64,000 nucleotides of DNA from Pseudomonas migulae (GTDB taxonomy: Bacteria > Pseudomonadota > Gammaproteobacteria > Pseudomonadales > Pseudomonadaceae). Positions 12,772 to 56,430 of the stretch are shown piece after piece. Each line of letters starts with the position of its first letter. Position 1 is the stretch's first letter. The notes beneath the pieces are model-generated. The model was not told the DNA's origin and searched no databases. It saw only the letters and a program-made list of their open reading frames with translations. The stretch covers positions 6,188,501-6,252,500 of the forward strand of contig NZ_JALJWR010000001.1 of assembly GCF_024169315.1 (NCBI RefSeq), given 5' to 3'. Position numbers and translations under genes: made by a program.

Positions 12772-12861
12772 GATGGCGCTCGTGAATTCGGGAAAGTCTG
12801 AGTGTGAGTTAACCATTTTGCCGGACGTTTGGCACTCCGACTTAGGCATGAGGGGAGGGCT

Positions 12862-39924: not shown

Positions 39925-39981
39925 ATTTATCTCAGTTTGTGTTAATCCCATATGCATGGGGTTTTATCAGGCTTCATTGGG

Positions 39982-40818: not shown

Positions 40819-40964
40819 GGCGCAGATCAGGGCGAAGCCACGAGTATTCCAGATGCCGTGGTTTTCCGCCCGTGTCCGCTGCGAGGTTTGCCGCGTCGTT
40901 GTGCCTGTGAAAGCGCCGGCGATTGCTTTAGCGTCAGCCCATGATTTTTTCGGAGCATGAGTGC

Positions 40965-42362
40965 ATGACGCTTCACACCGCGAACCGATCCCTGGCAGAT
41001 GCCCGGCCTTATCCCGTCTGGCAGGAGACGCGAGTTTCTGCGCCTGCTGCACCGAGGCTCACCGGCGAAGTGCCGTGTGATATTGCGATAGTGGGCGGCG
41101 GATTCGTCGGGTTGTGGACGGCGCTGATAGCGCGTCAGCGTTGGCCTGATGCAACGATCGTTGTGCTTGAAGCCGGGCAATGCGGCGGTGAAGCCAGTGG
41201 GCGCAATGGCGGGTTCTGCGCGCCGAGTATCTCTCACGGTGTTTCCAATGCGCTGAAACGTTGGCCCGGGGAAGCGGAGCAACTGGTTCGACTCGGCAGG
41301 GAAAACCTCGTGGCGTTTGAAGAAGATCTTCAGCGCTACGGCATGGACGTAGCGTTCGAGCGCTCCGGCAAGTTGAACGTCGCGAGCCAGCCCTGGCAGG
41401 TTGAAGGGCTGAAGTCGATGCAGCGCAACTACGAGCGCTTTGGTATCGATTGCGACTATCTCGAAGGCGAGGCGCTCAAGTCCCACCTCGATTCACCGGC
41501 CTATGTCGCCGGTGTTTTCGAGCCCAACTATGCATTGCTGAACCCGGTCAAAATGGTCGCGGAATTGCGCCGCGTGTGTCTTGCGCATGGTGTGCAGCTG
41601 TTTGAGCATTCTCCGGTAACCGGCCTGCGTCAGGACGGAACTCATCAGGTTCTGGAGACGGGGCTGGGCATCGTCAAAGCGGCGAAAGTCGCCCTCGGCA
41701 CCAACATCGCGCCGCCGTTGCTGGCGGCGCTGAAGTCCAAGGTCATCCCCATTTATGACTATGCCCTGGCGACCCGGCCCCTCGACGATGCGCAGCTGCG
41801 CGCCATCGGGTGGGTCGGTCGCTACGGCATCGCCGACAGTGGCAACCAGTTTCATTACCTGCGCAAGACCGAGGACAACCGCATTCTCTGGGGGGGCTAC
41901 GACGCTATCTATCATTTTGGCAGCCGACGCGATGAGGCGTTGACCCAGCGTCCCGACAGCTTCGTGACACTGGCCCGGCAATTTCAATCAACCTTTCCGG
42001 CATTGGCGGACGTCACGTTCAGCCATGCCTGGGGCGGCATCATCGATACCTCTGCGCGCACCACCATGTTCTGCGGCACTTCGTCCGACGGCCGCATTGC
42101 CTATGCCCAAGGGTTCACGGGGCAGGGCGTGTCTGCCAGTCGTTTCGCAGCGTTGACCATGCTCGATTTGCTCGAAGGTCAATCGACCGAGCGCACGCAG
42201 TTGGCGATGACCTCGACGGCGCCTTTCCCGTTTCCACCCGAGCCCTTGCGATACGCGGGCGTCTCCCTGGCGCAGCGTTCGCTGGCTCGCGAAGACCTTA
42301 CCGGGCACCGCGACTGGCTGCTCAAGGGGTTTGATGCGTTGGGCATTGGCTTTGATTCTTGA
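40965..42362 (+). CDS. FAD-dependent amine/amino acid oxidoreductase (DAO family)
   Basis: A 465-residue flavoenzyme. After about 35 residues comes the Rossmann motif DIAIVGGGFVGLWTALIARQ, then VLEAGQCGGEASGRNGGFC, the glycine-rich FAD region of the DAO/PuuB class, and a C-terminal GFTGQGVSASRFAA that closes the flavin site. The family oxidises secondary amines such as gamma-glutamylputrescine, sarcosine or glycine-type substrates to aldehydes or imines. It is followed 18 bases later by a cupin. With the polyamine-type importer and aldehyde dehydrogenases nearby, an amine substrate is likely. The ATG at 40965 is preferred over 40941. Confidence 0.88.
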   Translation: MTLHTANRSLADARPYPVWQETRVSAPAAPRLTGEVPCDIAIVGGGFVGLWTALIARQRWPDATIVVLEAGQCGGEASGRNGGFCAPSISHGVSNALKRWPGEAEQLVRLGRENLVAFEEDLQRYGMDVAFERSGKLNVASQPWQVEGLKSMQRNYERFGIDCDYLEGEALKSHLDSPAYVAGVFEPNYALLNPVKMVAELRRVCLAHGVQLFEHSPVTGLRQDGTHQVLETGLGIVKAAKVALGTNIAPPLLAALKSKVIPIYDYALATRPLDDAQLRAIGWVGRYGIADSGNQFHYLRKTEDNRILWGGYDAIYHFGSRRDEALTQRPDSFVTLARQFQSTFPALADVTFSHAWGGIIDTSARTTMFCGTSSDGRIAYAQGFTGQGVSASRFAALTMLDLLEGQSTERTQLAMTSTAPFPFPPEPLRYAGVSLAQRSLAREDLTGHRDWLLKGFDALGIGFDS

Positions 42363-42380
42363 ACTGAAGGGAGCATGACC

Positions 42381-42740
42381 ATGAACAACCCCGATCACAT
42401 CATCGATTTCGCCAACCCCGAGTTGCCCGTCGTCGAACTGGAAACCAGCGATCCTGCGCTGGTCGACACCGCGTATCGCAGTCGCAGTTGGCGGCACTTT
42501 GTGGCGCCGGAGAAAAATGCTGTCGCAGGCATCTGGGAGGCCCCTGAGCACCTGGAGCGCTGTGAGTGTGATTACGACGAGCTTTGCCATTTGCTCGAAG
42601 GGCACGTTCGGTTGACCGACAGCAAGGGCGTCAGTCAGGAGTTCAAGGCGGGCGCCACGTTCGTGGTCGCCGCCGGATTCAAAGGGACCTGGGAGAACCT
42701 GACGCCGGTGCGCAAGGTATTCATGATCCTCAGGGGCTGA
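42381..42740 (+). CDS. cupin domain protein (cupin_3/DUF861 type)
   Basis: A 119-residue single-domain cupin. GIWEAPEHLERCECDYDELCHLLEGHVRLTD gives motif 1, and FKAGATFVVAAGFKGTWENLTPVRKVFMIL gives motif 2. It resembles the ureidoglycine aminohydrolase-like cupin_3 family, whose members often accompany amine or amino acid oxidation genes. The downstream ATG is used because GGGAG lies 7 bases before it. Two further cupins of the same type occur at 50.6 and 51.1 kb. Confidence 0.85.
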   Translation: MNNPDHIIDFANPELPVVELETSDPALVDTAYRSRSWRHFVAPEKNAVAGIWEAPEHLERCECDYDELCHLLEGHVRLTDSKGVSQEFKAGATFVVAAGFKGTWENLTPVRKVFMILRG

Positions 42741-42742
42741 TG

Positions 42743-42836
42743 CCTGTAGGCGCGAAGCTTGCTCGCGAAAGCGGTAGGTCAGTCGCAGCGTTGTTCACTG
42801 GAAATCGCCTTCGCGAGCAAGCTTCGCTCCTACAGG
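42743..42836. repeat. REPIN (two REP elements in inverted orientation)
   Basis: CCTGTAGGCGCGAAGCTTGC at the left and its near-perfect inverted copy ending CTCCTACAGG at the right flank a 30-base spacer. This is the REP doublet of fluorescent pseudomonads. It sits between the convergent cupin and glycosyltransferase genes. Confidence 0.93.
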
Positions 42837-42847
42837 GTGGCGTTCGC

Positions 42848-44131
42848 TTAAGTGTTGGGCAGCGCCATGATCGCCTTTGCGGCAATGTCAGTGCCGCGAG
42901 TCGCCTGCATATTCTTGCTTAACGATTCGAGACGTTGCTGCATCGCCTGATCCGCCAGCAGTCGTTCGAGAGCCGCAGGTAGCGCGGCCAGCGGATCGGC
43001 AAACCGTGGCAAGTAGCGACCAACGCCGACTTCCTCGGCGCGTGCGGCATTGTCGTGGCCGTCCCAGCAATAAGGAATGATCAACGACGGCAAGCCGAAG
43101 TACAGCGCTTCGCAGAAGCTGTTGTTGCCGCCGTGGTGGATGAACAGCTGACATTCCTTGAGCACGGCCGGCTGTGGAAACCAGCTGTCCAGATACACGT
43201 TGTCCGGGACGGTGGTGTACATGTCCCGATAGGCGCCAACGTTGATGAGGAAGCGATAGGGCAGATGTTCGATGGTGCCGATGAGGCGCTTCATCATGTC
43301 GGTGTCGGCAGCCCCAAGACTGCCGAAGCTGATGTAAATCAGCGGTGCGTCGTTGTGCCTTGGGAAGTCGGGAACGATGTAGGGTGCTTCGCGACGCACG
43401 CAGCCGTCGAGGTACACATAGCGTTTCGGGTCCAGCGGTGGCTGGCGGTCATAACGCACCGGCGTTGGTGACAGCAACAGGTTGAGCCACGGTGAATCGA
43501 CGAGGAACTGGCCGGGCGGGCAGGGGGCGGTGCCGTTGTTGGCGAGAAACTGCGAAAAGCGTTCATGGGCCGGTGCGACGGCGTTGCGGTAATGCTCGGT
43601 AAACCGTTCGCGGGCCTCTTTGTCGCCAGCCAGGCAGCCTGACAAGTACGGCGGTACGGCGGCATCCGGCAATTCGGTTTCAGCGCAGGAAACCATCCGC
43701 ACCCACGGGCATCCGGCATTGGCGATGGCGGGGAACATGACCACGTTGTCGAGGACGATGACGTCCGGTTTAAGGCGGGCGAGCAACTGTTGCAGTGGCT
43801 TTTCCGCTTCGATCGCGGTGTCGATGATCGCTTCCCAGGCCGGCGCCACATAGCTGTCGATCTGTGCCAGTGGAGTCTGGTCGAAGTAGGGAATGTTGCG
43901 CTCGATAAAGCGCTCCCAGTAATGCTGGTGCTCCGCTGCCGACAGTGGACTGGCTTGCGGAATCGGATACTCGTCGAAGCCGTATTCGGCGAAGAGTCCC
44001 TGGAAATGTTCGTGGCAGATAAAGACCGGTTTTGCTCCCAGTTCACGCAGCGACTGGGCAATACCAATACAGTTCAAGGCCGCGCCGAAACTGGCTTCCG
44101 GAAACAAGGCGATCAGTTTGTGTGGGTGCAT
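42848..44131 (-). CDS. GT1-family (UDP-dependent) glycosyltransferase A
   Basis: A 427-residue GT-B enzyme. The N-terminal domain starts KLIALFPEASFGAALNCIGIAQSL; the C-terminal donor domain has IYISFGSLG, WFPQPAVL and LFIHHGGNNSFCEALYFGLPSL, the UDPGT signature region (HGG-x-N with downstream Pro). Such enzymes glycosylate small molecules (macrolides, flavonoids, toxins). It is about the same length as, and clearly paralogous to, the protein at 49279-50562. It is in the same direction as the GntR gene just upstream. Confidence 0.9.
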   Translation of the reverse strand: MHPHKLIALFPEASFGAALNCIGIAQSLRELGAKPVFICHEHFQGLFAEYGFDEYPIPQASPLSAAEHQHYWERFIERNIPYFDQTPLAQIDSYVAPAWEAIIDTAIEAEKPLQQLLARLKPDVIVLDNVVMFPAIANAGCPWVRMVSCAETELPDAAVPPYLSGCLAGDKEARERFTEHYRNAVAPAHERFSQFLANNGTAPCPPGQFLVDSPWLNLLLSPTPVRYDRQPPLDPKRYVYLDGCVRREAPYIVPDFPRHNDAPLIYISFGSLGAADTDMMKRLIGTIEHLPYRFLINVGAYRDMYTTVPDNVYLDSWFPQPAVLKECQLFIHHGGNNSFCEALYFGLPSLIIPYCWDGHDNAARAEEVGVGRYLPRFADPLAALPAALERLLADQAMQQRLESLSKNMQATRGTDIAAKAIMALPNT

Positions 44132-44227
44132 GGCGAAGAAAGTCCATGGCGGGTAAAGCCCGCCGTGCCTGAGATGACTGGATGCTGTCTTATTTTATAA
44201 AAAAAATCATCCTGTTTTTTGTGGTGT

Positions 44228-45160
44228 TCAGCGACGCCCGAACAAATGGCCCTGCGGAATCCCGCGATTGGCGGTTTGCGGGCGCTGGGCGGCGCTCATG
44301 CGCAGGTGCAGGCGCAGCAGGTCGGCGGCGATCTCCAGTTGTCCGCGCTCGATGTGCGCAATGATTTGCAGGTGCTCGCGCAGTGCTTCCTGCAGGCGGT
44401 GCACGCTGACGGTCGGCAACAGATTCGGCAGGCGCCGCAGGCTCTGATGCTGGAGCAGGGCGTCGCCGATAAATCGGTTGCCGCAGCTCTGGCCGATCAG
44501 TTCATGGAAGCTGATGTCCAGCTCGCGGAATTGCTGGATGTCGAAGTGTTCGACCGGGCTCGCGAGCAGGGTTTGCATGGCGCTGCGCAGCAGTGCCAAG
44601 CGTTGCGGATCGGCGTTGAAGTGGGGGCTGAGCAGCGCTTCCGGTTCCAGGATCAGGCGGAACTTGAGGCTTTCTTCGAGGGCGGCGAGGCTGTTCAGCG
44701 ATGGGCGAAACAGCCAGGACTGGCCGGGGCCGCGCTCTATCGCCTGGCTTTCGCTGAGTTGCTGCAGGGCTTTCTGCGCTGCCGGGCGGCCGATGTCGTA
44801 ACGACGCATCAACTCGCTGATGCTGATGCTGTCCCCGAGGCGTCCGGCCATGCGATCGCGCAATACCGAGGTCGCCAGTTCTTCTTCCTCGGCCTGTGGC
44901 AAGGCGGCGTTGAAGGCCTGGCCCCTCGGCGCGGCGAGCAGTCGATAGCCTTTGCCGGCTTCATGGCTCAGCAGGTTTTCTTCCAGCAGCACTTTCAGTG
45001 CGCCACGAATCAAGGTGCGGGACACCTGGAAGGTGCGCGACAACGCTTGCTCGGCAACCGGGTCGCCGGCCACCAGCCCGGTTTCCTGGGTGTGTTCCAG
45101 AATCCGGCGGGCGAGTTCCAGGTGATTGGTGCGAGGTTTTTTCTCGGGTGTCGTGCTCAA
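44228..45160 (-). CDS. GntR-family regulator, FCD subtype with two winged helices
   Basis: A 310-residue regulator. Residues 13-75 form one GntR-like winged helix (ARRILEHTQETGLVAGDPV, VSRTLIRGALKVLLEENLL). Residues 90-150 form a second, degenerate one (RYDIGRPAAQKALQQLSESQ). Residues 160-290 are an FCD-type ligand domain with FRELDISFHELI. Most FCD proteins have one winged helix. It is divergent from the ABC-transporter operon and upstream of glycosyltransferase A, so it probably controls both. Confidence 0.87.
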   Translation of the reverse strand: MSTTPEKKPRTNHLELARRILEHTQETGLVAGDPVAEQALSRTFQVSRTLIRGALKVLLEENLLSHEAGKGYRLLAAPRGQAFNAALPQAEEEELATSVLRDRMAGRLGDSISISELMRRYDIGRPAAQKALQQLSESQAIERGPGQSWLFRPSLNSLAALEESLKFRLILEPEALLSPHFNADPQRLALLRSAMQTLLASPVEHFDIQQFRELDISFHELIGQSCGNRFIGDALLQHQSLRRLPNLLPTVSVHRLQEALREHLQIIAHIERGQLEIAADLLRLHLRMSAAQRPQTANRGIPQGHLFGRR

Positions 45161-45243
45161 GCGTCTTATCTCTTTTGGTCGCTTTGGACTCAGGTGCTCA
45201 TCTTATGCCATGCACCGCTGAGTCGTCAGGCACGAAAAAAGCG

Positions 45244-45272
45244 TTGACAACTTTCAATGCTGGTCCTAATTT
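45244..45272 (+). promoter_or_regulatory. candidate sigma-70 promoter of the transporter-glycosylation operon
   Basis: TTGACA (45244-45249) is a perfect -35 box; TAATTT at 45267-45272 is a weak -10 box after 17 bases. The start of the binding-protein gene is about 80 bases downstream. The divergent GntR gene starts 84 bases upstream. Confidence 0.5.
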
Positions 45273-45354
45273 CTAAAAAAAAACACGTGCAACCGTTTCT
45301 CTTTTCGCCGTACTGCCTTCGAACACAACAATAATCAATCGTCGGGTGAGTATT

Positions 45355-46410
45355 ATGAGAAAGCTGAAAGGCCTTATGTGTCTGGGATTGAGCGTTTCCC
45401 TGGCGATCGCTTCACAGGCCGCAAGTGCAAAAGACATGGTGATTTCGATCTGGGACGGCTACATGGCCCCGGATGCGCTGGACAAGTTCAAAGCAGCCAG
45501 CGGCGTTGACGTCGACAAGGCTTTGCACGCGACCAACGAGGAAATCATGGGCAAGCTCATGGCGTCTGGCGGTGAAGGCTATGACGTTGTGTTTGTCTCC
45601 TCTCCTTTCGCCGAAGTCCTGCACAAGCAGGGTCTGCTGGCCGATATCGATCCCGTCAAAGTCCCCAACCTTAAAAACCTCTATCCCGAAGCCACCAAAC
45701 TGGAATACGACCCAGGCAACCATTTCTCGGTGCCGTACACCTGGGGCACGACCGGGATTTGCTACCGCTCCGACAAGGTCACGCCGGCACCGGTAAGCTG
45801 GAACGAACTGCTCAACCCGAGCGATGCGCTCAAAGGCAAAGTGACGATGCTCGCCACCGACCGCTGGATGCTCGGCGCCGGGTTCCTCGCCAAGGGCTGG
45901 TCGGTCAACGACAGCGATCCCAAACAGATCGCCGCCGTCCGCGATCAGTTGATCGCTACCAAGAAACGCATCCTCGCCTTCGACGACACCACCTTCTATT
46001 CCAAGCTCGCGTCCGGCGAGTCGCTGATGGCGCACGCGTGGGATGGCTGGTGCAACTACGGCACCCAGGCCAATGCGGCTATCAAGTTTGTCGTGCCCAA
46101 GGAAGGTTCCGACCTCTGGGTAGACACCATGGTCGTGCTGAAAAGCTCGAAGCATCAGGAGGAGGCGTTCAAGTTCGTCAACTTCATGCTCGCCAAGGAA
46201 AACCACGCCTGGGTGGCGGAAAACATCCTCTACAAAGTCCCGAACCAGGCCGCAATGGCCGGTTTGTCCGCTGACCTGCTCAAGCAATACCCGAACCTGA
46301 CGATCGCCCCGAGCGAGCTGTTGAAGATGGAGCAATTGCGCGATCTGGGCGGCACTACGCAAAAGGCCTACACCCGGGCTGTCACCGAAATCATGGCGGC
46401 GCAGAATTAA
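45355..46410 (+). CDS. ABC transporter substrate-binding protein (polyamine type)
   Basis: A 351-residue periplasmic binding protein of the PotD/PotF family. A signal peptide (residues 1-26, ending ASA) is followed by ISIWDGYMAPDALDKFKAAS, VVFVSSPFAEVLHKQGLLADID, and VPYTWGTTGICYRSDKV, all typical of the polyamine-binding fold (in PotD/PotF the W-x-GTTG-like loop faces the ligand). GGTGAG before ATG 45355 supports this start. It heads an apparent 11-gene operon. Polyamine-like or other cationic amine ligands are the best guess. Confidence 0.9.
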   Translation: MRKLKGLMCLGLSVSLAIASQAASAKDMVISIWDGYMAPDALDKFKAASGVDVDKALHATNEEIMGKLMASGGEGYDVVFVSSPFAEVLHKQGLLADIDPVKVPNLKNLYPEATKLEYDPGNHFSVPYTWGTTGICYRSDKVTPAPVSWNELLNPSDALKGKVTMLATDRWMLGAGFLAKGWSVNDSDPKQIAAVRDQLIATKKRILAFDDTTFYSKLASGESLMAHAWDGWCNYGTQANAAIKFVVPKEGSDLWVDTMVVLKSSKHQEEAFKFVNFMLAKENHAWVAENILYKVPNQAAMAGLSADLLKQYPNLTIAPSELLKMEQLRDLGGTTQKAYTRAVTEIMAAQN

Positions 46411-46508
46411 GCCCCGCAAAACGTAAGCCGCATCGATCACGAGGCATGCCCGGCATGCCTCGCCACGCTCGCAAGCCGCCTCTGTTCCGGGGCGGGAGGA
46501 TATGGGTA

Positions 46509-47369
46509 ATGAGTGCTTTGCATGCTGACAGGCGTCTGTCGGCCTGGCTTCTTGCGCCCGGCTTTGGCTGGCTGCTGATATTTCTGGTGGTGCCGTGCGT
46601 TCTGGTGCTGGTCTACAGCTTCGTCGAGCGCGGTGCTTACGGCGGCATCGACTGGCTGTTTACCTGGGAAAACTATCAGCGCGCATTCGATCCGCTGTAC
46701 CTCGGCATCCTGCTCAAATCGGCAAAAATCGCCGGACTGGCGACGCTGTTTGCGGTGCTGATCGGCTACCCGGCGGCGTATGCGATTGCCCGAGCACCGC
46801 GGCGCCATCAAGCGGTGTTCCTGTTTCTGGTGATGCTGCCGTTCTGGAGCAACTACCTGATCCGCACCTATGCCTGGATCGTCCTGCTCAACCGCGAAGG
46901 CCTGATCAACAAAATGCTGCAGATGTTCGGCTACAGCGGCGAACCGATCAGCCTGCTGTACACCGAGGCGTCGGTGGTGCTGGGGCTGGTCTACAACTAC
47001 ATCCCGTTTGTGATCCTGGCGATTTTCTCGTCGCTGTCACGCATTAACAACGAACTCTGGGACGCCTCGAAAGACCTCGGCGCCTCGGGCTGGATGACCT
47101 TTCGCCGGATCATCCTGCCGCTGAGCGTGCCCGGTGTCGCCGCCGGTGCCGTGTTTGTTTTCGTCCTGAGCATCGGCAACTTCATCACCGCCGACCTGTT
47201 GGGCGGCAAGCAGGTGCAGATGGTCGGCAACCTGATCTACTCGCAATTCCTCACGGCGCGGGACTGGCCGTTCGGTGCGGCGCTGAGCTTTTTCCTGATC
47301 GCGATCATGCTGATCCTGTTGTTCGTCCAGGCACTGGTGGCCCGTCGTGCAGAAGGGGGCCGCGCATGA
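46509..47369 (+). CDS. ABC transporter permease (PotB/PotH type)
   Basis: A 286-residue inner-membrane protein with six transmembrane segments. The cytoplasmic EAA loop reads LWDASKDLGASGWMTFRRIILPLSVPG, the site of ATPase contact. GGGAGGA lies 8 bases before ATG 46509; an upstream in-frame codon at 46446 is not needed. It overlaps the next permease by 4 bases. Confidence 0.93.
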   Translation: MSALHADRRLSAWLLAPGFGWLLIFLVVPCVLVLVYSFVERGAYGGIDWLFTWENYQRAFDPLYLGILLKSAKIAGLATLFAVLIGYPAAYAIARAPRRHQAVFLFLVMLPFWSNYLIRTYAWIVLLNREGLINKMLQMFGYSGEPISLLYTEASVVLGLVYNYIPFVILAIFSSLSRINNELWDASKDLGASGWMTFRRIILPLSVPGVAAGAVFVFVLSIGNFITADLLGGKQVQMVGNLIYSQFLTARDWPFGAALSFFLIAIMLILLFVQALVARRAEGGRA

Positions 47370-48172
47370 GTCAGTCTCGTTCGCTGGGCGGCACCGCACT
47401 CAATGCGCACCTGTGGCTGGTGTATGCCTTCCTGTATGTGCCGATCCTGGTGTTGATCCTGCTGTCGTTCAACAAGTCCGGATTACCGACGGCCTGGGGC
47501 GGCGTATCGCTGAAATGGTACGTGTCGCTGGCGCATAACTCGGCGATTCTCTCGGCAGCCCTCAATACCTTGATCGTGGCGCTGTCGGCGACGTTCATTG
47601 CCTGCGTGCTCGGGACGTTCCTTGCGCTGGGCATCGAGCTGCGCCGCAAGGGCAACGACAAGGGGCAAGTGGTCGACACCTTGTTGATGGCGCCGATGAT
47701 CATTCCCGACATCGTCCTGGCGATTGCGCTGCTGAGCTTTTTCAACCTGCTCAAGGTCGGACTGGGCCTGCACTCGATCATCATCAGCCACGCCGTGTTC
47801 AACATCGCGTTCGTCTGCGCGGTGGTGCGCACGCGGCTCAAACACTTTGACTATTCGATCCTCGAAGCCTCGATCGACCTGGGCGCGAGCTGGTTCACCA
47901 CCTTTCGCCGGGTGCTGTTGCCGGCGATTTTTCCCGGTGTGCTGGCGGGTGGCTTGCTCTCCTTCACGCTGTCGGTGGACGAATTCATCATCGCGTTTTT
48001 CAACTCCGGTTCCGGCCAGGCCTCCACCACGTTGCCGATGCAGATCTACGCCATGATCCGTTTTGGCGTCACCCCGGAAATCAATGCCCTGGCGACGCTG
48101 GTGATGCTGGTCAGCATCACCGCGCTGCTGGCTTCGCAGCGTCTCAACAAGGCTCCTCGCACCCATGAATAA
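47366..48172 (+). CDS. ABC transporter permease (PotC/PotI type)
   Basis: A 268-residue second permease with six transmembrane segments and the EAA loop ILEASIDLGASWFTTFRRVLLPAIFPG. Together with the preceding gene it forms the membrane heterodimer. It overlaps the ATPase gene by 8 bases. Confidence 0.93.
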   Translation: MSQSRSLGGTALNAHLWLVYAFLYVPILVLILLSFNKSGLPTAWGGVSLKWYVSLAHNSAILSAALNTLIVALSATFIACVLGTFLALGIELRRKGNDKGQVVDTLLMAPMIIPDIVLAIALLSFFNLLKVGLGLHSIIISHAVFNIAFVCAVVRTRLKHFDYSILEASIDLGASWFTTFRRVLLPAIFPGVLAGGLLSFTLSVDEFIIAFFNSGSGQASTTLPMQIYAMIRFGVTPEINALATLVMLVSITALLASQRLNKAPRTHE

Positions 48173-49244
48173 TTCATCTGCGGTACTGATCCTGGACAAG
48201 GTCAGCAAGTCTTATGGCAACGGTCTGGCGGTTGACGAGGTGTCGCTGAACATCCGCGAGAACGAGTTCTTTGCATTGCTGGGGCCGTCCGGCTGCGGCA
48301 AGACCACGCTGTTGCGCATGCTCGCCGGCTTCGAAACCCCCAGCGCCGGCTGCATTTACCTGGATGGCAAAGACATCTCGCCGCTGCCGGCCAACAAGCG
48401 TCCGTTGAATCTGATGTTCCAGTCCTATGCGCTGTTTCCCAACATGACCGTGCGCAAGAACATCGCCTACGGGCTGGAAATGGAACGCTTGCCCGAGGCG
48501 GAAATTCGTCGCCGGGTCGATGAAGTGCTGAGCACCGCGCAACTCGGTGAACTGGCCGAGCGCAAGCCGGATCAGCTCTCCGGTGGTCAGCGCCAACGCG
48601 TTGCGCTGGCGCGGGCGCTGGTGAAACGCCCTCGGGTGTTGCTGCTCGATGAGCCGCTGGGCGCACTGGACAAAAAACTCCGGGAAAAGATGCAGCTCGA
48701 ACTCAAGCGCCTGCAACTGGAGAGCGGCATCACCTTCATCATCGTCACCCACGATCAGGAAGAAGCGCTGGTGATGTCGGACCGCATGGCGGTGCTCGAC
48801 GGCGGCAAGGTCTGCCAGTGCGGCAGCCCCACCGAGCTCTACGAAAACCCCAACAGCCGTTTTGTCGCCAACTTCATCGGCGTCAGTAATCTGTTCGAGG
48901 GCGTGCGGTCGGGTGCGAACTCGGTGCGCGTCAATGGTCAGGAGCTGGCTGTCGAGACCGACGCGCCGCTGGTGCCGGGGCAAAAGGTCGCCGTCGTCGT
49001 GCGCCCTGAACGTCTGCAGGTGCTCGCGGAGGAGGGCGAGACCTGTGCCAATCAGGTCACCGGCAACATCGTCGAAATCGCCTATCACGGCCTCGACACC
49101 AACGTGCATGTGCAGACGGCACTCAGCGACAAGGCGTTGATTGTCCGGGTGCCGTCCTCGCAATTCGAATTTGCTCATTTTGCTATCGGTATGAGCGTCC
49201 ATCTCGGCTGGCAGGCTCGCCACGCCCGTGTATTGACGCGCTGA
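48165..49244 (+). CDS. ABC transporter ATPase (PotA/PotG type)
   Basis: A 359-residue ATPase. Walker A is GPSGCGKTT, the signature is LSGGQRQRVALARAL, Walker B is VLLLDEPLGALD, and the C-terminal third is a TOBE domain. It powers the polyamine-type importer. A 34-base gap separates it from glycosyltransferase B. Confidence 0.94.
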   Translation: MNNSSAVLILDKVSKSYGNGLAVDEVSLNIRENEFFALLGPSGCGKTTLLRMLAGFETPSAGCIYLDGKDISPLPANKRPLNLMFQSYALFPNMTVRKNIAYGLEMERLPEAEIRRRVDEVLSTAQLGELAERKPDQLSGGQRQRVALARALVKRPRVLLLDEPLGALDKKLREKMQLELKRLQLESGITFIIVTHDQEEALVMSDRMAVLDGGKVCQCGSPTELYENPNSRFVANFIGVSNLFEGVRSGANSVRVNGQELAVETDAPLVPGQKVAVVVRPERLQVLAEEGETCANQVTGNIVEIAYHGLDTNVHVQTALSDKALIVRVPSSQFEFAHFAIGMSVHLGWQARHARVLTR

Positions 49245-49278
49245 ACAATAAAAAAAGACCAGGCAGGAGTACCGCTCG

Positions 49279-50562
49279 ATGAAACAGAAAGTGATCGCCT
49301 TCTTTCCGGAAGCCGCTTATGGCCCGGCACTGAACTCGGTTGGCATCGCCCAGGCGTGCGAAGCCCTCGGCCACAAGGCGGTTTTCCTCACCGACCCCGG
49401 CATGAGCGGTGTGTATGCCGGCTACGGTTTTGAAGAACACATGGTCAACATGTCGGCGCCGATGCCCGCCGAAGAAATGGCCCGCTACTGGGTCGATTTC
49501 ATCAACGGCCACATTCCCAATTTCCGCAAATCCCCAATCGATCAAATCGACAACTACGTGAAGGAATGCTGGGCCGCCATCGTCGACACCGCGAAGTGGG
49601 CGCAGAAGGATCTGCCGGCGGTGCTGGACAAGGTCAAACCCGATCTGATCTGCGTCGATAACGTGATCCTGTTTCCCGCGATCAAGCAGTACGGCAAGCC
49701 TTGGGTGCGGATCATTTCCTGCTCGGAAAACGAGATCGAAGACCCGGATATCCCGCCGCACCTGTCGGGCATGAGCATTCACGACAAGGCGGGCCACGCG
49801 CAATTTCGCCAGCGTTTCGAAGAGGTGGTCGGGCCGATTCATGAGGACTTCAACCAGTTCCTGCAAGCCCATGGCGAGCAGCCGTACCCGCTCGGCACTT
49901 TCTTCGAAGCCTCGCCGTACATGAACCTGCTGCTGTACCCGGACGCGGTCAAGTTCGAGCGCCGTCACCCGTTGCCAGCCGAGCGTTTCCATTACCTGCA
50001 AGGGTGCGTTCGCCACGATACGGCCTACGACATTCCCGAGTTTCGCGCCAACAACGACAAGCCGTTGCTCTACGTCAGTTTCGGCAGCCTCGGTTCGGGC
50101 GACGTCGATCTGCTCCAGCGTCTGATCACCACCGTTGGCAAGTTGCCTTACCGCGCCTTGTTCAATGTCGGCGAGCACCTCGATGAGTACCCGGACCTGC
50201 CCGACAACGTGCTGATCTCCAACTGGTTCCCGCAGCCGTCGGTGATTGCCCAGGTCGATGCGGTGATCCATCACGGCGGCAACAACAGCTTCACCGAGTG
50301 CCTGTTTTTCGGTAAGCCGGCGATCGTCATGTCCTACGTCTGGGACGGTCACGACAACGCCATGCGCGCCGAAGAAAGCGGTCACGGGTTCAAGCTCGAT
50401 CGCTACGAGTGGAGCGAAGCACAGCTCGCGGAGAAGCTCGCGGCGTGCCTCAACGACGAGGCAATGCGCCAACGTCTTCAGCGCACCAGCGCGCAGATGC
50501 AATCACGCAAAGGGCCAGCGGACGCGGCCGCCATTCTCGACAAGGTGCTGAACAATGCCTGA
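49279..50562 (+). CDS. GT1-family (UDP-dependent) glycosyltransferase B
   Basis: A 427-residue GT-B enzyme paralogous to that at 42848-44131: the two share VIAFFPEA/LIALFPEA starts, CVRHD/CVRRE, LYVSFGSLG, WFPQPSVIAQVDAVIHHGGN and WDGHDNAMRAEE motifs throughout. The donor-binding region is intact. GGAG precedes the ATG. Location inside a transport operon suggests it modifies the imported compound or a derivative. The 3' end overlaps a cupin gene by 8 bases. Confidence 0.92.
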   Translation: MKQKVIAFFPEAAYGPALNSVGIAQACEALGHKAVFLTDPGMSGVYAGYGFEEHMVNMSAPMPAEEMARYWVDFINGHIPNFRKSPIDQIDNYVKECWAAIVDTAKWAQKDLPAVLDKVKPDLICVDNVILFPAIKQYGKPWVRIISCSENEIEDPDIPPHLSGMSIHDKAGHAQFRQRFEEVVGPIHEDFNQFLQAHGEQPYPLGTFFEASPYMNLLLYPDAVKFERRHPLPAERFHYLQGCVRHDTAYDIPEFRANNDKPLLYVSFGSLGSGDVDLLQRLITTVGKLPYRALFNVGEHLDEYPDLPDNVLISNWFPQPSVIAQVDAVIHHGGNNSFTECLFFGKPAIVMSYVWDGHDNAMRAEESGHGFKLDRYEWSEAQLAEKLAACLNDEAMRQRLQRTSAQMQSRKGPADAAAILDKVLNNA

Positions 50563-50923
50563 GCAAAACACCACGGCGGGTATCACGCCGTACCTCGAAG
50601 CCGTCAGCAGTCGCACCGACCTGGTGGACTGGGGCGTGCAGAGCGACGCCGTCGAAGGCGTCTCGCATTCCAGCGGCCGGCTGCTGTTCAAAGGCCCGAA
50701 TAACAGTCCCGAAACCGGGCTCTGGGTTTGCACGCCCGGCCGCTGGCGGCTGTCGATTCCCCGTGACGAGTTGTGCCACTTCATCGCCGGCGTCGCCACT
50801 TATCGCAATGACAACGGCGAAGTGATCGACATTCGCCCGAACACCCTGGTGCTGTTCCCGGCCGGCTGGACCGGCGAATGCCACGTCCGGGAAACCCTGC
50901 GCAACGTTTACATGCTGGCCTGA
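50555..50923 (+). CDS. cupin domain protein (cupin_3 type)
   Basis: A 122-residue single cupin. GLWVCTPGRWRLSIPRDELCHFIAG, then the GEVIDIRPNTLVLFPAGWTG segment, match the other two cupins. Start overlaps glycosyltransferase B, so it is coupled. A REPIN separates it from the next cupin. Confidence 0.85.
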   Translation: MPEQNTTAGITPYLEAVSSRTDLVDWGVQSDAVEGVSHSSGRLLFKGPNNSPETGLWVCTPGRWRLSIPRDELCHFIAGVATYRNDNGEVIDIRPNTLVLFPAGWTGECHVRETLRNVYMLA

Positions 50924-50934
50924 ACCTCAATACC

Positions 50935-51034
50935 TGTAGGAGTGAGCTTGCAAGCGAAAAACGTCAATACAACGCGGTCATCCAGACAGTACGCGTCATC
51001 GTTGACGTCCATCGCGAGCAAGCTCGCTCCTACA
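50935..51034. repeat. REPIN inside the operon
   Basis: TGTAGGAGTGAGCTTGCAAG on the left and the inverted TCGCGAGCAAGCTCGCTCCT plus ACA on the right, around a spacer of about 50 bases. It lies between two co-directional cupin genes, so it is probably transcribed and forms a large hairpin in the mRNA. Confidence 0.92.
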
Positions 51035-51062
51035 ACACCTCGATTCTTTTGGAGAGCAACAC

Positions 51063-51407
51063 ATGACTACCCCGTTTCTGTACGACCCGCTGAGCATCAC
51101 TGACGTCAAGGATTGGGGCGTGATCCCGACCATGCTCGAAGGTGAATCCCGTGTTTCCGGCGTGGTGCTGCACAAAGGCCCCGAAGGCCAGTCCGAGTGT
51201 GGTGTGTGGATCTGCACGCCGGGCAAATGGTTTTGCCATGTCACCAGTGATGAGTTCTGCCATTTCCTCGAAGGCCGCTGCACCTACGTCCACGAATCCG
51301 GCGAAGTGATCGAGATCAAACCCGACACCGCAGCTTTTTTTCGCAAGGACTGGAAAGGCGTGTGCACCGTCCATGAGACGGTGAAAAAGGTCTACATGAT
51401 CCGGTGA
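51063..51407 (+). CDS. cupin domain protein (cupin_3 type)
   Basis: A 114-residue cupin. GVWICTPGKWFCHVTSDEFCHFLEG and KPDTAAFFRKDWKGVCTVHE give the two cupin motifs and align residue by residue with the preceding cupin, suggesting duplication. TTTGGAGAG stands before the ATG. Its stop overlaps the kinase gene region. Confidence 0.86.
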   Translation: MTTPFLYDPLSITDVKDWGVIPTMLEGESRVSGVVLHKGPEGQSECGVWICTPGKWFCHVTSDEFCHFLEGRCTYVHESGEVIEIKPDTAAFFRKDWKGVCTVHETVKKVYMIR

Positions 51408-51412
51408 TTGCC

Positions 51413-52486
51413 ATGACTGAGACACGTGCGTCATCGCCTACCCGTGAGGACCAGCGCGCAGCCTTTCTGGCGCGCGCCGGCTTCGCCGAGGCGCAACTGG
51501 TCGCGCTGCCGGCGGATGCCTCGACCCGGCGCTATTTCCGCTTGAGCGGTGAAGGCCTGCTGTTGATGGATTCGTCACCGCACAGCGAGCCAATCGGCCC
51601 GTTTGTCCAGGTTGCCCGGCACTTGCACGGACTGGGGCTTTCCGCGCCGGCCATGCTGCAGGTCGACGAGGAAGCAGGGCTGGCGTTGATCGAGGATTTC
51701 GGTCACGACACCTACACCCGATTGTTGGCAGCCGGGCATCCGGAAACGGCGCTGTATCGCTTGGCGATCGACGCGCTGGTGGCGTTGCACCGCGCGCCAC
51801 CGACGGCGGAAATGGCGCCTTACGATGCCCGACAACTGAGTGACGAGTGTGCGCTGTTTATCGATTGGTACGTGCCGTTGCTGATTGGCAAGGAAGCGGC
51901 GCTGGACCTGCGCGAGTCGTTTTTGACGCTGTTCGCCGAGGCCTGTAGCGATGTCGCGCAACGTCGTGAAGCGCTGGTATTGCGCGACTTCCACGTCGAC
52001 AACCTGATGCTGCTCGAAGGCCGCGAAGGCGTTGCGGCCTGCGGTCTGCTGGATTTTCAGGACGCACTGATCGGTGCAGCGGCGTACGACTTGATGTCGC
52101 TGCTCGAAGACGCGCGCCGGGACGTGCCCGAAGCGTTGCGCGTGGCGCTGCTGACGCATTACCTGATGCAACGCCCGGAACTCGATGCACCGCGTTTTCT
52201 CGAGGATTACCGGCGGCTGGCCGCCCAGCGTCACGCCAAGGTGCTGGGAATTTTTGTGCGCCTGGCGGGCCGCGATGGCAAGCACGGTTACCTGGCGCAT
52301 CTGCCGCGCACCCTGGGTTTGTTTGTTCGGGCGCTGGAGGCCGAGGCATTTGCAACACTGCGCGCCTGGCTCAATGGGCATGTACCGGGCTGGCGCGATG
52401 AGCTACCGCCCGCGACCCTCGCGGCGTTGCGCGAAACCCCTTATCGATTGGTTCAAGGATTACCCCATGGCCACGTTCAACACTGA
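51413..52486 (+). CDS. phosphotransferase, AmgK-like anomeric sugar kinase
   Basis: A 357-residue APH/choline-kinase-fold protein. It resembles AmgK, the N-acetylmuramate/N-acetylglucosamine 1-kinase, across its length: ASTRRYFRL near the N-terminus, LVLRDFHVDNLML with catalytic Asp and Asn (Leu replaces the usual His of HRD), LLDFQDALIGAAAYDLMSLL with the metal Asp, and KVLGIFVRLAGRDGKHGYL. I infer phosphorylation of a sugar at C1. ATG 51413 is preferred over GTG 51404. The end overlaps the aldehyde dehydrogenase by 20 bases. Confidence 0.8.
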   Translation: MTETRASSPTREDQRAAFLARAGFAEAQLVALPADASTRRYFRLSGEGLLLMDSSPHSEPIGPFVQVARHLHGLGLSAPAMLQVDEEAGLALIEDFGHDTYTRLLAAGHPETALYRLAIDALVALHRAPPTAEMAPYDARQLSDECALFIDWYVPLLIGKEAALDLRESFLTLFAEACSDVAQRREALVLRDFHVDNLMLLEGREGVAACGLLDFQDALIGAAAYDLMSLLEDARRDVPEALRVALLTHYLMQRPELDAPRFLEDYRRLAAQRHAKVLGIFVRLAGRDGKHGYLAHLPRTLGLFVRALEAEAFATLRAWLNGHVPGWRDELPPATLAALRETPYRLVQGLPHGHVQH

Positions 52487-53975
52487 CACTGCACTGCGTT
52501 TCATCAACTCCGAGTACCTGCCGCTTTCGAATGCCCGCACCCGCGAAGTGCTTGATCCGGCCAACTTGCAACCTGTCGGACAGGTCGGCTTCGGCGACCA
52601 AAGCGATGTGCAGGCTGCCGTCGATGCCGCCACCGCTGCGCAAAAACAGTGGCGGCTGATCGACGCGAAAAGCCGCGCCGCGCTTTTGCACAAACTGGCC
52701 AATGCCATCGAGCAGGACATTGCCTGCAACCGTGAAGTCGCGCGGCTGATGACCCTGGAAATGGGCAAGCCGTTTCCCGAAGCCATGGGCGAACTCGCCA
52801 ACTGCGCGCCGATCTTTCGCTACTACGCGGAAATGGCCCGGGACGATGCCGGCAAGGTTGCCGGTACCACGCAGATCGGCTCGTTCCAGCATGTGCGCTA
52901 TGAACCGTATGGCGTCAGCGTGCACATCATGCCGTTCAACTTTCCGATCCTGTTGATGTGCTGGACGGTCGCTGCCTCGTTGGCCGCGGGCAATGCCTGC
53001 ATCGTCAAACCGGCGGAAGCCACGACCCTGTGCACGCTCAAGTTCATGGAGCATTTCACCTCGCTGCTGCCGGGCCTGGTGTCTTGCGTGCCGGGCGATG
53101 CGGTGACAGCGCAGTTGCTGGTGAAGTCGACTGGCACTCACGCGGTGGCCTTTACCGGCAGCGTGGCGGCGGGCAAAGCGGTGGCGGTGGCGTGTGCCGA
53201 ACAGATGAAACCGTGCGTGATCGAGGCCGGTGGCAGCGACCCGCTGATCATCTCCAGACATGCGCCGCTGGATGTCGCCGCAGCAGGCGCGGTGACCGCC
53301 GCGTTCCACCTGAGCGGGCAGATTTGCACCTCGGCGGAGCGCTTTTACGTGGTCGATGACATCCACGATGAGTTCGTCGCAAAATTCGCCGAGCGCACCC
53401 GCGCCTTGCGCATCGGCCATGGCCTGGAACATACGGAAATCGGGCCGATGGTCAGCGAGGCCGCGCGCAATAAAGTCATGCGCCTGGTCGACGACGCCGT
53501 GGCCAAAGGCGCGACGCTGGTCTGTGGTGGGCGGATTCCGCCGCAGCACAACGTGGGCTGGTTCTATGAGCCGACCATCCTCACCGGCGTGACCGCTGAC
53601 ATGGCGATTCTCCAGGAAGAGTGTTTCGGCCCCGTCGCGGCGATCTGTCGTGTCAGCGATTTCGACGAAGCGGTGCGACTGGCCAATGATTCGCCGTTCG
53701 GTTTGGGTGCGTCGCTGTTTTCCACCGACCTTGCCGAGGCCATGGAAGCCGCCGAGCGTCTTGAAGCCGGAATGGTCTGGGTCAACAACCCGCTGATCGA
53801 CAACGACGCGCTGCCGTTTGGCGGCTGGAAGATGTCCGGCCTGGGACGCGAACTCGGACGTCAGGGCCTTGAAGCGTTCCGGCGCTCGAAAATGGTCATC
53901 ATCGATCACCAGCCGAAGATTCAGGACTGGTGGTATCCGTATGCCGACGACGTGTTCTATCGCGATCAGGCTTGA
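52467..53975 (+). CDS. NAD(P)-dependent aldehyde dehydrogenase 1
   Basis: A 502-residue ALDH superfamily enzyme. The catalytic Cys lies in GQICTSAERF (about residue 286) and the base Glu in VIEAGGSDP (about 252); the NAD site motif is FTGSVAAGK. The IEAGGSDP variant differs from the usual LELGGKSP and occurs in succinate-semialdehyde-like enzymes. AGGAT before ATG 52467. It is translationally coupled to the kinase, and probably oxidises the aldehyde made by the oxidoreductase. Confidence 0.92.
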   Translation: MATFNTDTALRFINSEYLPLSNARTREVLDPANLQPVGQVGFGDQSDVQAAVDAATAAQKQWRLIDAKSRAALLHKLANAIEQDIACNREVARLMTLEMGKPFPEAMGELANCAPIFRYYAEMARDDAGKVAGTTQIGSFQHVRYEPYGVSVHIMPFNFPILLMCWTVAASLAAGNACIVKPAEATTLCTLKFMEHFTSLLPGLVSCVPGDAVTAQLLVKSTGTHAVAFTGSVAAGKAVAVACAEQMKPCVIEAGGSDPLIISRHAPLDVAAAGAVTAAFHLSGQICTSAERFYVVDDIHDEFVAKFAERTRALRIGHGLEHTEIGPMVSEAARNKVMRLVDDAVAKGATLVCGGRIPPQHNVGWFYEPTILTGVTADMAILQEECFGPVAAICRVSDFDEAVRLANDSPFGLGASLFSTDLAEAMEAAERLEAGMVWVNNPLIDNDALPFGGWKMSGLGRELGRQGLEAFRRSKMVIIDHQPKIQDWWYPYADDVFYRDQA

Positions 53976-53993
53976 CTCATTGGGAGGGTCGCA

Positions 53994-54959
53994 ATGAGCG
54001 ACAACATTTCCTGGCCGACCCTGGCGGTGATTCTCGCCGCCGGGCAGGGCACCCGCATGCGTTCGCAGCTGCCGAAAGTCATGCATCCGGTGGGCAACCG
54101 GCCGTTGCTCGGCCATGTACTGGCGGCGGTCGAGGCGGCGGATATCGATCAATGCGCGGTGGTGTTGGGCGCAGGCAGTCGGGCGGTTGCCGATTACTTG
54201 AAACAGGCAGCGCCGACTGCGCGAACGTTTACCCAGCAAGAGCAGTTGGGAACGGCCCATGCGTTGCTTGCCGCCCGGCCCGCATTGCAGGCCCATGAGC
54301 AGGGTTGCGTGCTGGTGCTGTTCGGCGATTCGCCATTGATCAGCGCGCAAACCTTGTTGCAATTACGTCAGGCGCTGATCGACGGTGCCGCCGTGGCGGT
54401 CGCGGGATTTCACACCGCACAGCCGGGGCCTTACGGACGATTGCTGGTGGAAGAGGGCCGCTTGCTGGCCATTCGCGAAGCCAGGGACGCCAGCCCGAAA
54501 GAGCTTCAGGTCAACTTCTGCAATGGCGGCGTCATGGGTTTGCGTGCCGACACCTGCCTGTGGCTGCTGGACCGGATCGGCAACCAGAACGCACAAGGCG
54601 AGTTTTATCTCACCGATGCAGTGGCGGTGGCCAACAGCGCCGGTCTGCCGGTCACGGCGGTGGAGGTGGATGAAGACGACGTGCTCGGGGTCAATGACCG
54701 CGAGCAATTGCATGCCGCCGAACAACTTTTTCAGCAGCGCCGACGACGTTCAGTCATGCAGTCTGGTGTCAGCCTGGTGGCGGCGGAGACGGTGTTTTTC
54801 AGTGCCGATACGCAACTGGCCACGGACGTGCACATCGAGCCTTGCGTGGTGTTCGGGCCGGGGGTGAGCGTGGGCAGCGGGGTGCGGGTGGATGCGTTCA
54901 GTCGCCTGGAAAATGTTCGGCTGGAGCAGCCGGTGAATGAAGGAGTGTGTCATGCGTGA
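53994..54959 (+). CDS. GlmU-like uridylyltransferase, truncated C-terminal domain
   Basis: A 321-residue protein. Residues 8-250 are a GlmU-type nucleotidyltransferase: VILAAGQGTRMRSQLPKVMH, QQEQLGTAHALLAARPAL, VLVLFGDSPLI, GPYGRLLVEEG and NAQGEFYLTD all match UDP-GlcNAc pyrophosphorylase. From 260 a few left-handed beta-helix turns begin (VHIEPCVVFGPGVSVGSGV) and then stop, so the acetyltransferase half (about 130 residues) is missing. It would make a UDP-sugar from the product of the kinase. GGGAGG precedes the ATG. Confidence 0.88.
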   Translation: MSDNISWPTLAVILAAGQGTRMRSQLPKVMHPVGNRPLLGHVLAAVEAADIDQCAVVLGAGSRAVADYLKQAAPTARTFTQQEQLGTAHALLAARPALQAHEQGCVLVLFGDSPLISAQTLLQLRQALIDGAAVAVAGFHTAQPGPYGRLLVEEGRLLAIREARDASPKELQVNFCNGGVMGLRADTCLWLLDRIGNQNAQGEFYLTDAVAVANSAGLPVTAVEVDEDDVLGVNDREQLHAAEQLFQQRRRRSVMQSGVSLVAAETVFFSADTQLATDVHIEPCVVFGPGVSVGSGVRVDAFSRLENVRLEQPVNEGVCHA

Positions 54960-56430
54960 CTATCAACGGCTGTACATCGGCGGCGAGTGGATCGCGCCAG
55001 TGCAGCGTGGTGTTTTTGAAACGTTTGACCCCAGCGATGAATCGGTGCTGGCACAGGTCGCGGCCGCCACGGCGGAAGACATCGACCTGGCCGTCGCCGC
55101 CGCGCGCAAGGCGTTCGACGAAGGTGACTGGCCGCGCTGGACGGGTGCGCAGCGAGCGCAGGTTCTGCGGCGAATCGCTGACGGTATTCGTGCGCGTCAG
55201 GGCGAACTGGCCGCCATCGAAGTGCGCGACAACGGCAAGCCGCTGCCGGAAGCGCTGTGGGACATCGCCGACACCGCGGGTTGTTTCGATTTCTATGCCG
55301 GGCTCGCCGAAGGCTCGGACCCACACAGCGAGCAGTCGATCAGCGTACCCGATGAACGCTTCAATTCCTCGGTGATCAAGGAACCGGTCGGCGTGGTCGC
55401 CGCGATCATTCCCTGGAATTTTCCGATGCTGATGGCGTCGTGGAAAGTCGCACCGGCGCTGGCGGCGGGCTGCACGGTCGTGCTCAAACCGTCGGAACTG
55501 ACGCCGCTGACCGCCCTTGAATTGGCAACTATTGCCGATCAGGCTGGCTTGCCGGCGGGGGTGTTGAACGTCGTCAGCGGACTGGGGCGTGAGGCCGGCG
55601 CGCCGCTGGCCGAGCACCCGGACGTCGACAAAATCGCCTTCACCGGCAGCGTGCCGACCGGGCGCAAGATCATGCAAGCGGCGGCGGCCGAGATCAAAAA
55701 CATCAGCCTGGAGCTGGGCGGCAAGTCGCCGTTCGTGATCTTCGCCGACAGTGACCTCGATGCCGCGGTGGAGTGGATTCTGTTCGGGATTTTCTGGAAC
55801 CAGGGCCAGGTCTGTTCGGCCACGTCGCGAGTGTTGGTGGAGCGCGCGTTGTATCCGGCACTGTTGGGGCGATTGATCGAAGCCACCGAGCAAATTCGTA
55901 TCGGCCAAGGCTTTACCGAGGGTGTGAAACTCGGGCCGCTGGTCAGTCAGGGGCAACTGGACAAGGTGCTCGACGCCATTGCCGCCGGTCAGCAAGAGGG
56001 TGCGCGACTGGTGTCCGGCGGCACACGTCCGGCCCATCTGCAGAAAGGTTATTACCTGACCCCGGCGATCTTCGCCGATGTGCCGGAGCACAGTTCGGTG
56101 TGGCGCGAGGAGATCTTCGGCCCGGTGGTCTGCCTGCGGGCCTTCGACACAGAAGCCGAAGCGATTCGCCTGGCCAACGATTCACCATTCGGTCTGGCGG
56201 CCGCGGTCATGTCCCGCGATATCCCGCGTTGCGAACGAGTGGCCCGACGCTTTCGCGCCGGGATCGTCTGGGTCAACTGCTCGCAACCGACTTTTGTCGA
56301 GGCCCCTTGGGGCGGTTACAAGCAGAGCGGTATCGGGCGTGAGCTGGGTGAGTGGGGCTACAACAATTACCTCGAGACCAAGCAAATCACTCGATACAAC
56401 GGCGGACCCTGGGGGAGGTATTTGAGCTGA
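54952..56430 (+). CDS. NAD(P)-dependent aldehyde dehydrogenase 2 (betaine-aldehyde type)
   Basis: A 492-residue enzyme. LELGGKSPFV and GQVCSATSRV hold the base Glu (about 254) and nucleophile Cys (about 287). IIPWNFPMLMASWKVAPALAAG is typical of betaine- or aminoaldehyde dehydrogenases. AAGGAG supports ATG 54952, which overlaps the GlmU-like gene by 8 bases. It is the last gene of the operon. Confidence 0.93.
   Translation: MRDYQRLYIGGEWIAPVQRGVFETFDPSDESVLAQVAAATAEDIDLAVAAARKAFDEGDWPRWTGAQRAQVLRRIADGIRARQGELAAIEVRDNGKPLPEALWDIADTAGCFDFYAGLAEGSDPHSEQSISVPDERFNSSVIKEPVGVVAAIIPWNFPMLMASWKVAPALAAGCTVVLKPSELTPLTALELATIADQAGLPAGVLNVVSGLGREAGAPLAEHPDVDKIAFTGSVPTGRKIMQAAAAEIKNISLELGGKSPFVIFADSDLDAAVEWILFGIFWNQGQVCSATSRVLVERALYPALLGRLIEATEQIRIGQGFTEGVKLGPLVSQGQLDKVLDAIAAGQQEGARLVSGGTRPAHLQKGYYLTPAIFADVPEHSSVWREEIFGPVVCLRAFDTEAEAIRLANDSPFGLAAAVMSRDIPRCERVARRFRAGIVWVNCSQPTFVEAPWGGYKQSGIGRELGEWGYNNYLETKQITRYNGGPWGRYLS

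Follow-up and report, generated by a model that had tools for sequence, protein, structure and literature searches.

Gene Content and Layout of the Cluster

The window analyzed here comprises 64,000 nucleotides of a 6.54 Mb, single-contig Pseudomonas genome (Pseudomonas migulae, NZ_JALJWR010000001.1, positions 6,188,501 to 6,252,500) and contains a cluster of about 15 adjoining genes, in which an ATP-binding cassette (ABC) importer, two GT1-type glycosyltransferases, candidate enzymes for making a uridine diphosphate (UDP) sugar and putative amine-oxidizing enzymes come together. All the protein families that an earlier note had named for this cluster are matched by Pfam and NCBIfam. The start codons of the following open reading frames are our choice and several coordinates are approximate.

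40941 to 42362, plus strand: flavin adenine dinucleotide (FAD) amine oxidoreductase of the DAO family (start perhaps at about 40965; PF01266, E value 2e-55; TIGR03329, 219 bits against a cut-off of 633)
42375 to 42740, plus strand: EutQ-like cupin Cup3 (PF05899, Cupin_3)
42848 to 44131, minus strand: GT1-B, a GT1-type glycosyltransferase paralogue (Pfam and NCBIfam, MGT-like)
44228 to 45160, minus strand: GntR/FCD regulator (PF00392 in two stretches, PF07729)
45244 to 45272, plus strand: promoter-like block TTGACA-17-TAATTT upstream of the importer (conserved in the intergenic alignment)
45355 to 46410, plus strand: Pot-type substrate-binding protein (PF13416; PDB matches PotD and PotF)
46446 to 47369, plus strand: ABC permease 1 (start uncertain; PF00528, synteny)
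47366 to 48172, plus strand: ABC permease 2 (PF00528, synteny)
48165 to 49244, plus strand: ABC ATPase of the PotA subfamily (TIGR01187, 400.7 bits, cut-off 355.6)
49279 to 50562, plus strand: GT1-A, the core GT1-type glycosyltransferase, without catalytic His
50555 to 50923, plus strand: EutQ-like cupin Cup1 (PF05899)
51063 to 51407, plus strand: EutQ-like cupin Cup2, the core cupin (Cupin_3)
about 51413 to 52486, plus strand: AmgK-like anomeric-type sugar kinase of the APH superfamily (NF045698, 245 bits against a cut-off of 500)
about 52467 to 53975, plus strand: ALDH1, the core aldehyde dehydrogenase (PF00171)
53994 to 54959, plus strand: nucleotidyltransferase resembling the N-terminal domain of GlmU, 321 residues (NF010933, 379 bits, cut-off 505)
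about 54952 to 56430, plus strand: ALDH2, similar to plant aminoaldehyde/betaine-aldehyde dehydrogenases (PF00171; best PDB match 3iwj)

From the importer through ALDH2 all genes point in the same direction, and neighbors overlap or are separated by less than about 100 bases, as the earlier note had described, with a single exception of 139 bases between Cup1 and Cup2. Within this longest gap of the operon lies a REP-like inverted repeat (TGTAGGAGTGAGCTTGC ... GCAAGCTCGCTCCTACA, 50935 to 51034). GT1-B and the GntR regulator are read from the minus strand, in the direction away from the importer operon.

Conservation and Distribution of the Unit

How widely is this arrangement found? A scan of genome contigs yielded 449 loci with a relative of GT1-A, the best 80 of which were retained (38 from Pseudomonas and 42 from other organisms); since these are the top scorers, close relatives are over-represented among them. 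Full flanks are available for 28 Pseudomonas and 25 other loci, and 10 of the 38 Pseudomonas stretches are short. The identity limits for gene presence in the 80 loci were set by us, and all genome and locus counts ignore kinship among the genomes. A core recurs that consists of GT1-B, GntR, the PotDBCA-like importer, GT1-A, two EutQ-like cupins and ALDH1, in the shared order GT1-B (minus), GntR (minus), binding protein, permease, permease, ATPase, GT1-A, Cup1, Cup2, the kinase where present, and ALDH1. This order is found in Pseudomonas, Rhizobium, Shinella, Mesorhizobium (with an additional cupin), Ruegeria, Amorphus and Aidingimonas (Cup1 undetected). Synteny, by which the earlier note had suggested checking its proposal, thus extends from Pseudomonas to Rhizobiales, Rhodobacterales and Aidingimonas (Halomonadaceae).

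Among the loci whose flanks are complete, the binding protein was detected in 26/28 from Pseudomonas and 24/25 others, GT1-B in 26/28 and 23/25 (33/38 and 35/42 of all loci), Cup2 in 28/28 and 25/25, and ALDH1 in 28/28 and 23/25 (37/38 and 36/42 of all loci); Cup1 was detected in 36/38 Pseudomonas and 36/42 other loci. The outer genes, coding for DAO, Cup3, ALDH2 and the GlmU-like protein, vary from locus to locus, Cup3 being found next to DAO in 19/38 Pseudomonas loci. In evenly drawn samples, each of which counts the genome of the window, GT1-A is encoded for the genus by 8 of 149 genomes, for the class by 2 of 321 and for the phylum by 8 of 398. Its sequence identity is about 70% when Pseudomonas is compared with Rhizobiales and about 60% when the comparison is with haloarchaea, and the protein of the window is 99% identical to the copy in NBRC 103157 (locus L045). 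The cluster is one real unit, patchily distributed, rare and strongly conserved. Among the hits listed in searches of the open-access literature by combinations of gene names, no description of this gene set came up, in line with the earlier note, to whose author no such pathway was known.

Several loci carry less than the full core. Two haloarchaeal plasmids encode a reduced core of GT1-A, a cupin and an ALDH, and in both plasmids genes for a ROK kinase and for a phosphoglucomutase/phosphomannomutase come next, which may constitute an alternative route to a sugar-1-phosphate. A reduced module of GT1-A, Cup2 and ALDH1, lacking a dedicated importer, GT1-B, GntR and the kinase, occurs in Pseudomonas sp. 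Fl4BN1 (L035), where an SSF transporter lies upstream, and in P. protegens (L038). One gamma-class relative (63%, L118) has GT1-A without other core genes within the 16 kb fetched, and for a relative on a Streptomyces plasmid (L006), where the operon is absent, no functional context was found. On a plasmid of P. frederiksbergensis (L007, about 12000 to 13300) the degraded remnant of a GT1-B-like gene, interrupted by in-frame stops, precedes the start of a DAO-like frame; a search for functional context around this remnant, which lies beside type VI secretion genes, found none.

GT1-Type Proteins Without the Usual Histidine

The predicted structure of GT1-A has a GT-B fold and lies near those of known GT1 enzymes, and its C-terminal UDP-binding motif HHGGNNS..E is invariant or nearly so in the GT1-A alignments. 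GT1-B is 47% identical to GT1-A. From these and the other alignments of cluster proteins, translated hits with an in-frame stop, with less than 60% coverage or under our identity limits were excluded. The Asp of the PSPG motif is kept (D356 in 83/83 GT1-A rows), but the Gln is gone, the 'DQ' of the motif being replaced by 'DG' in the GT1 proteins of the cluster. In GT1 enzymes an N-terminal His is catalytic. The corresponding position is occupied by Tyr or Phe in 82 of the 82 GT1-A rows that have a letter there (83 rows in total) and in 71/71 GT1-B rows; it aligns with the His of CalG1 (in a weak piece, E value 9.8) and with a Phe of the mite protein UGT203A2. Five acidic residues, Glu11, Asp127, Glu150, Glu152 and Asp155, do not vary in any of the 83 GT1-A and 71 GT1-B rows that has a letter at the position. 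Because the usual His base is missing and the N-terminal side is invariantly acidic, the acceptor of GT1-A is probably an amine, which is perhaps glycosylated on its nitrogen.

The top-scoring PDB relatives of GT1-A are xenobiotic or natural-product transferases, and the closest solved proteins are UDP-glycosyltransferases (UGTs) of spider mites (PDB 7lvy/7mco, 6pnt), for which a bacterial origin has been reported. The mite UGT202/UGT203 proteins differ from GT1-A in being encoded by animal genes, without an operon, and UGT203A2 has the PSPG 'DQ' and is uncharged at the positions of Glu150, Glu152 and Asp155, two of which are also uncharged in the Streptomyces relative. According to excerpts of two reports, UGT2B10 and UGT1A4, which lack the His, N-glucuronidate amines, and UGT2B10 retains the Asp (PMC8781437, PMC5075577).

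Kinase and GlmU-Like Nucleotidyltransferase

Where could the activated sugar come from? With limits of E 1e-50 for the kinase and 1e-60 for the GlmU-like gene, the AmgK-like kinase was found in 8/8 genomes of the genus that carry GT1-A and in 0/141 others, and the GlmU-like gene in 6/8 and in no other of the 149; some of these matches are flagged with one internal stop. As these strict limits exclude the genome's own separate paralogues (E values of 3e-41 and 2e-46), the cluster copies are extra, dedicated ones. Among the 80 loci the kinase is present in 36/38 from Pseudomonas versus 4/42 others, and the GlmU-like gene in 20/38 versus 1/42. In two genera outside the Pseudomonas family, Amorphus and Aidingimonas, the locus has the kinase, ALDH2 and DAO, joined in Aidingimonas by the GlmU-like gene. 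The dedicated UDP-sugar synthesis claimed in the earlier note is likely in Pseudomonas, where the kinase and often the uridylyltransferase stand beside housekeeping copies, but it is not a core feature, the genes for it being missing from most other loci.

The kinase scores below both AmgK equivalog cut-offs (245 versus 500 and 146 versus 550 bits), a weak test since the genome's likely true AmgK also falls short of its cut-off (329 versus 550). The APH-type motifs rD.HvDN and LLdFQD are conserved in an alignment of 39 rows, at some positions in at least 90% of the rows rather than invariantly, and the uridylyltransferase motifs LAAGQG.RM.S..pKV.H and GDsPL are conserved in 21 GlmU-like rows. 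The GlmU-like protein lacks a full C-terminal acetyltransferase domain, as its match ends near position 308 to 315 of about 455 and conservation ceases after the uridylyltransferase domain. AmgK-MurU salvage and the cluster share the combination of an anomeric-type kinase with a uridylyltransferase that would yield a UDP-sugar. Elsewhere the genome has an amgK-murU pair of its own, whose MurU scores above the NCBIfam cut-off. The copies in the cluster are separate paralogues tied to the glycosyltransferase genes, with a nucleotidyltransferase that resembles GlmU and is not a MurU. Murein recycling as the role of the cluster is rejected on account of the separate pair.

Importer and Regulation

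The ATPase passes the PotA-subfamily cut-off, and the binding protein remains below those of PotD (157 versus 582) and PotF (144 versus 636). In an alignment of 77 rows, in which the own genome is counted twice (window and locus L001), Gly and Trp are invariant at the positions of PotD E36 and E171 (W-x-G-Y and TDRW), and the Asp that corresponds to PotD D257 is retained. In PotD, E36 and E171 are polyamine-binding acids. With Gly and Trp at the two Glu positions and the Asp kept, a di- or polyamine is improbable as the ligand, and the imported compound would probably have a single amine bound in the manner of PotD. The polyamine-type importer of the earlier note is thus Pot-type by family, but its polyamine-binding acids are replaced, and from these residues a true polyamine importer is judged unlikely.

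In most loci GntR and the importer are transcribed away from each other. With two GntR-type helix-turn-helix stretches (Pfam), the regulator of the window may carry a duplicated DNA-binding domain. The block TTGACA-17-TAATTT is conserved in 36 aligned Pseudomonas intergenic sequences, that of the window among them; a generic scan for sigma-70 promoters did not list it. Before the importer, CTTATG.CA is conserved in Pseudomonas and TTGACGTATT in alphaproteobacteria. Within the window the 13-base version of the CTTATG.CA block matches exactly nowhere but at its own site, and chance would give more looser matches than were counted, so that no link between DAO and the regulon follows from this block.

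On the other side of DAO an AraC-type regulator with an N-terminal SnoaL-like domain is encoded (39982 to 40910, minus strand, start uncertain; Pfam HTH_18, SnoaL_2). Homologues adjoin DAO in five loci (L008, L010, L011, L015, L045), and this neighbor is possibly linked to the cluster. A protein of 579 residues at 38218 to 39957 of the window has the look of phage tail-spike or pectate-lyase-like repeats, with no Pfam match at E 1e-5.

Candidate Enzymes of Amine Oxidation

DAO of the type found in the window is present in 20/38 Pseudomonas and 2/42 other loci. A DAO-family or amine-oxidase gene of any kind lies near the core in these 20 Pseudomonas loci, in Amorphus, Aidingimonas, Mesorhizobium (L077), L119 and L121, and in both haloarchaea. 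A gene for a saccharopine-dehydrogenase-like (SDH-like) protein is found directly 3' of ALDH1, with a gap of 41 to 375 bases, in 27/42 non-Pseudomonas loci and never together with window-type DAO (0/80 loci); one or the other is present in 49/80 loci, a raw count without background rate. ALDH2 matches best the aminoaldehyde dehydrogenase 3iwj (615 bits), and the plant group as a whole, presumably ALDH10, scores 580 to 615 bits, far above the next group of ALDHs (about 443). Hence the plant aminoaldehyde/betaine-aldehyde dehydrogenases are the closest relatives of this bacterial operon protein, and its omega-aminoaldehyde activity is putative. For ALDH1 a comparison with known ALDHs gave no clear closest characterized relative. 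Genes of the glutamine-synthetase family were observed near the core in Mesorhizobium (L077, 1802 to 3181; 188 bits to gamma-glutamylputrescine synthetase, below the cut-off) and Natrialba (L005, 3382 to 4743), suggesting that glutamylation and the glycosyltransferase system may work side by side.

Proposed Mode of Action and Alternatives

How could such a set of genes act together? From the observed gene set, synteny, co-occurrence and residue conservation, and from the predicted folds of GT1-A and Cup2, we infer a cationic acceptor, an order of steps and a re-activation of the sugar. We tentatively favor a GntR-controlled amine-utilization unit in which the amine is processed by way of a glycosylated intermediate, a reading that is possible but in which we place less than even confidence. 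The Pot-type importer would bring in a compound with a single amine, and GT1-A, together with its paralogue GT1-B in most loci, would move a sugar from a UDP-sugar onto this cationic acceptor. DAO would then oxidize a C-N bond, a task that other amine oxidases or the SDH-like enzyme may take over in other lineages, and ALDH2 and ALDH1 would oxidize the resulting aldehyde. The AmgK-like kinase would convert the free sugar to the sugar-1-phosphate and the GlmU-like enzyme would convert this to the UDP-sugar, feeding the glycosyltransferases; in the two haloarchaea the ROK kinase and phosphoglucomutase could replace them, and loci with neither pair would draw on housekeeping UDP-sugar. This scheme is the simplest that uses nearly every gene. 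No role is assigned in it to the cupins; a search with the predicted fold of Cup2 ranks DUF861/EutQ-type proteins first, mostly without known role. The importer, the two ALDHs and the FCD-type regulator moderately favor catabolism. That N-glycosylation by a His-less GT1 serves as the protecting-group step of a new amine catabolism, the part that gamma-glutamylation plays in the Puu pathway, with the sugar re-activated by dedicated enzymes and the system spread among bacteria and archaea, is a more specific version that we consider unlikely.

Several observations weigh against the glycosylated-intermediate scheme. Pot-type binding proteins take diverse ligands. The Tyr or Phe in place of the His also occurs in a mite UGT and in the Streptomyces relative outside any such operon and is therefore not specific to amines; the five acids are known from the sequence, and their facing the acceptor is a prediction. 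In the excerpts cited above UGT1A4, which likewise lacks the His, also performs O-glucuronidation (PMC8781437, PMC5075577). No glycosidase to free the sugar was recognized. Neither the SDH-like gene nor window-type DAO occurs in 31/80 loci (13/42 of the non-Pseudomonas loci), the fetched stretches of 18/38 Pseudomonas loci lack window-type DAO and those of 18/38 lack ALDH2, and the counts of DAO-family genes near the core stand without a control for chance proximity. Substrate and enzyme activities of the unit are putative throughout. The reading of the earlier note is partly borne out: import, amine oxidation and GT1 proteins do belong to one unit, and the GT1 proteins lack the usual His.

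It could also be imagined that the dedicated UDP-sugar builds a glycoside as end product, be it for storage, as a signal or as a detoxified compound, and that amine oxidation prepares the acceptor. Such a role would suit the dedicated kinase and uridylyltransferase and the xenobiotic and natural-product transferases among the highest-scoring PDB relatives; however, the unit is built on a binding-protein importer, two ALDHs and a GntR/FCD regulator, Pfam and NCBIfam recognize no exporter among its genes, and most non-Pseudomonas loci lack the UDP-sugar genes, so we regard this alternative as rather unlikely. Quite unlikely, in our view, is the import of a glycosylated amine or an opine-like secondary amine that DAO or the SDH-like enzyme splits, with the ALDHs oxidizing the aglycone, the kinase salvaging the sugar and the glycosyltransferases running in reverse onto UDP. 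As classes, DAO and SDH-like enzymes do accept secondary amines, free reducing sugars are substrates of AmgK, and the invariant Trp residues of the binding protein, frequent in sugar binders, may point the same way; yet no glycosidase is recognized, and we know of no pathway in which reverse GT1 reactions are main steps.

Alternatively, GT1-A and GT1-B could be GT-B-fold proteins of another role, for example in ligand sensing or in a different transfer chemistry, as neither the catalytic His nor the Gln of the PSPG motif is preserved. The conserved UDP-binding motif and PSPG Asp, and the possible donor supply in Pseudomonas loci, where the kinase is so frequent and the nucleotidyltransferase present in about half, make this improbable. 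Lastly, although DAO, Cup3, ALDH2 and the GlmU-like gene come and go between loci, the notion that the genes are neighbors by chance or form several independent units is rejected as extremely improbable and largely refuted by synteny, because the core order is conserved across classes and the kinase co-occurrence is exact.

Relation to Known Systems and Significance

If the cluster works as a unit of amine utilization through a glycosylated intermediate, it would resemble the gamma-glutamylation pathways Puu and Pau in its conjugation before oxidation, in addition to the Pot-type importer, the DAO-family oxidase and the ALDH that they have in common. In contrast to these pathways, Pfam and NCBIfam detect no gamma-glutamylpolyamine synthetase among the cluster proteins of the window, and a GT1 with UDP-sugar supply is found instead. 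The cluster links GT1 chemistry with the uptake and oxidation of amines and offers a testable case for the function of GT1 enzymes without the His. It also places bacterial relatives of the mite UGTs in an operon context, and GT1-A could be of use in locating the lineage from which the spider-mite UGTs would have come.

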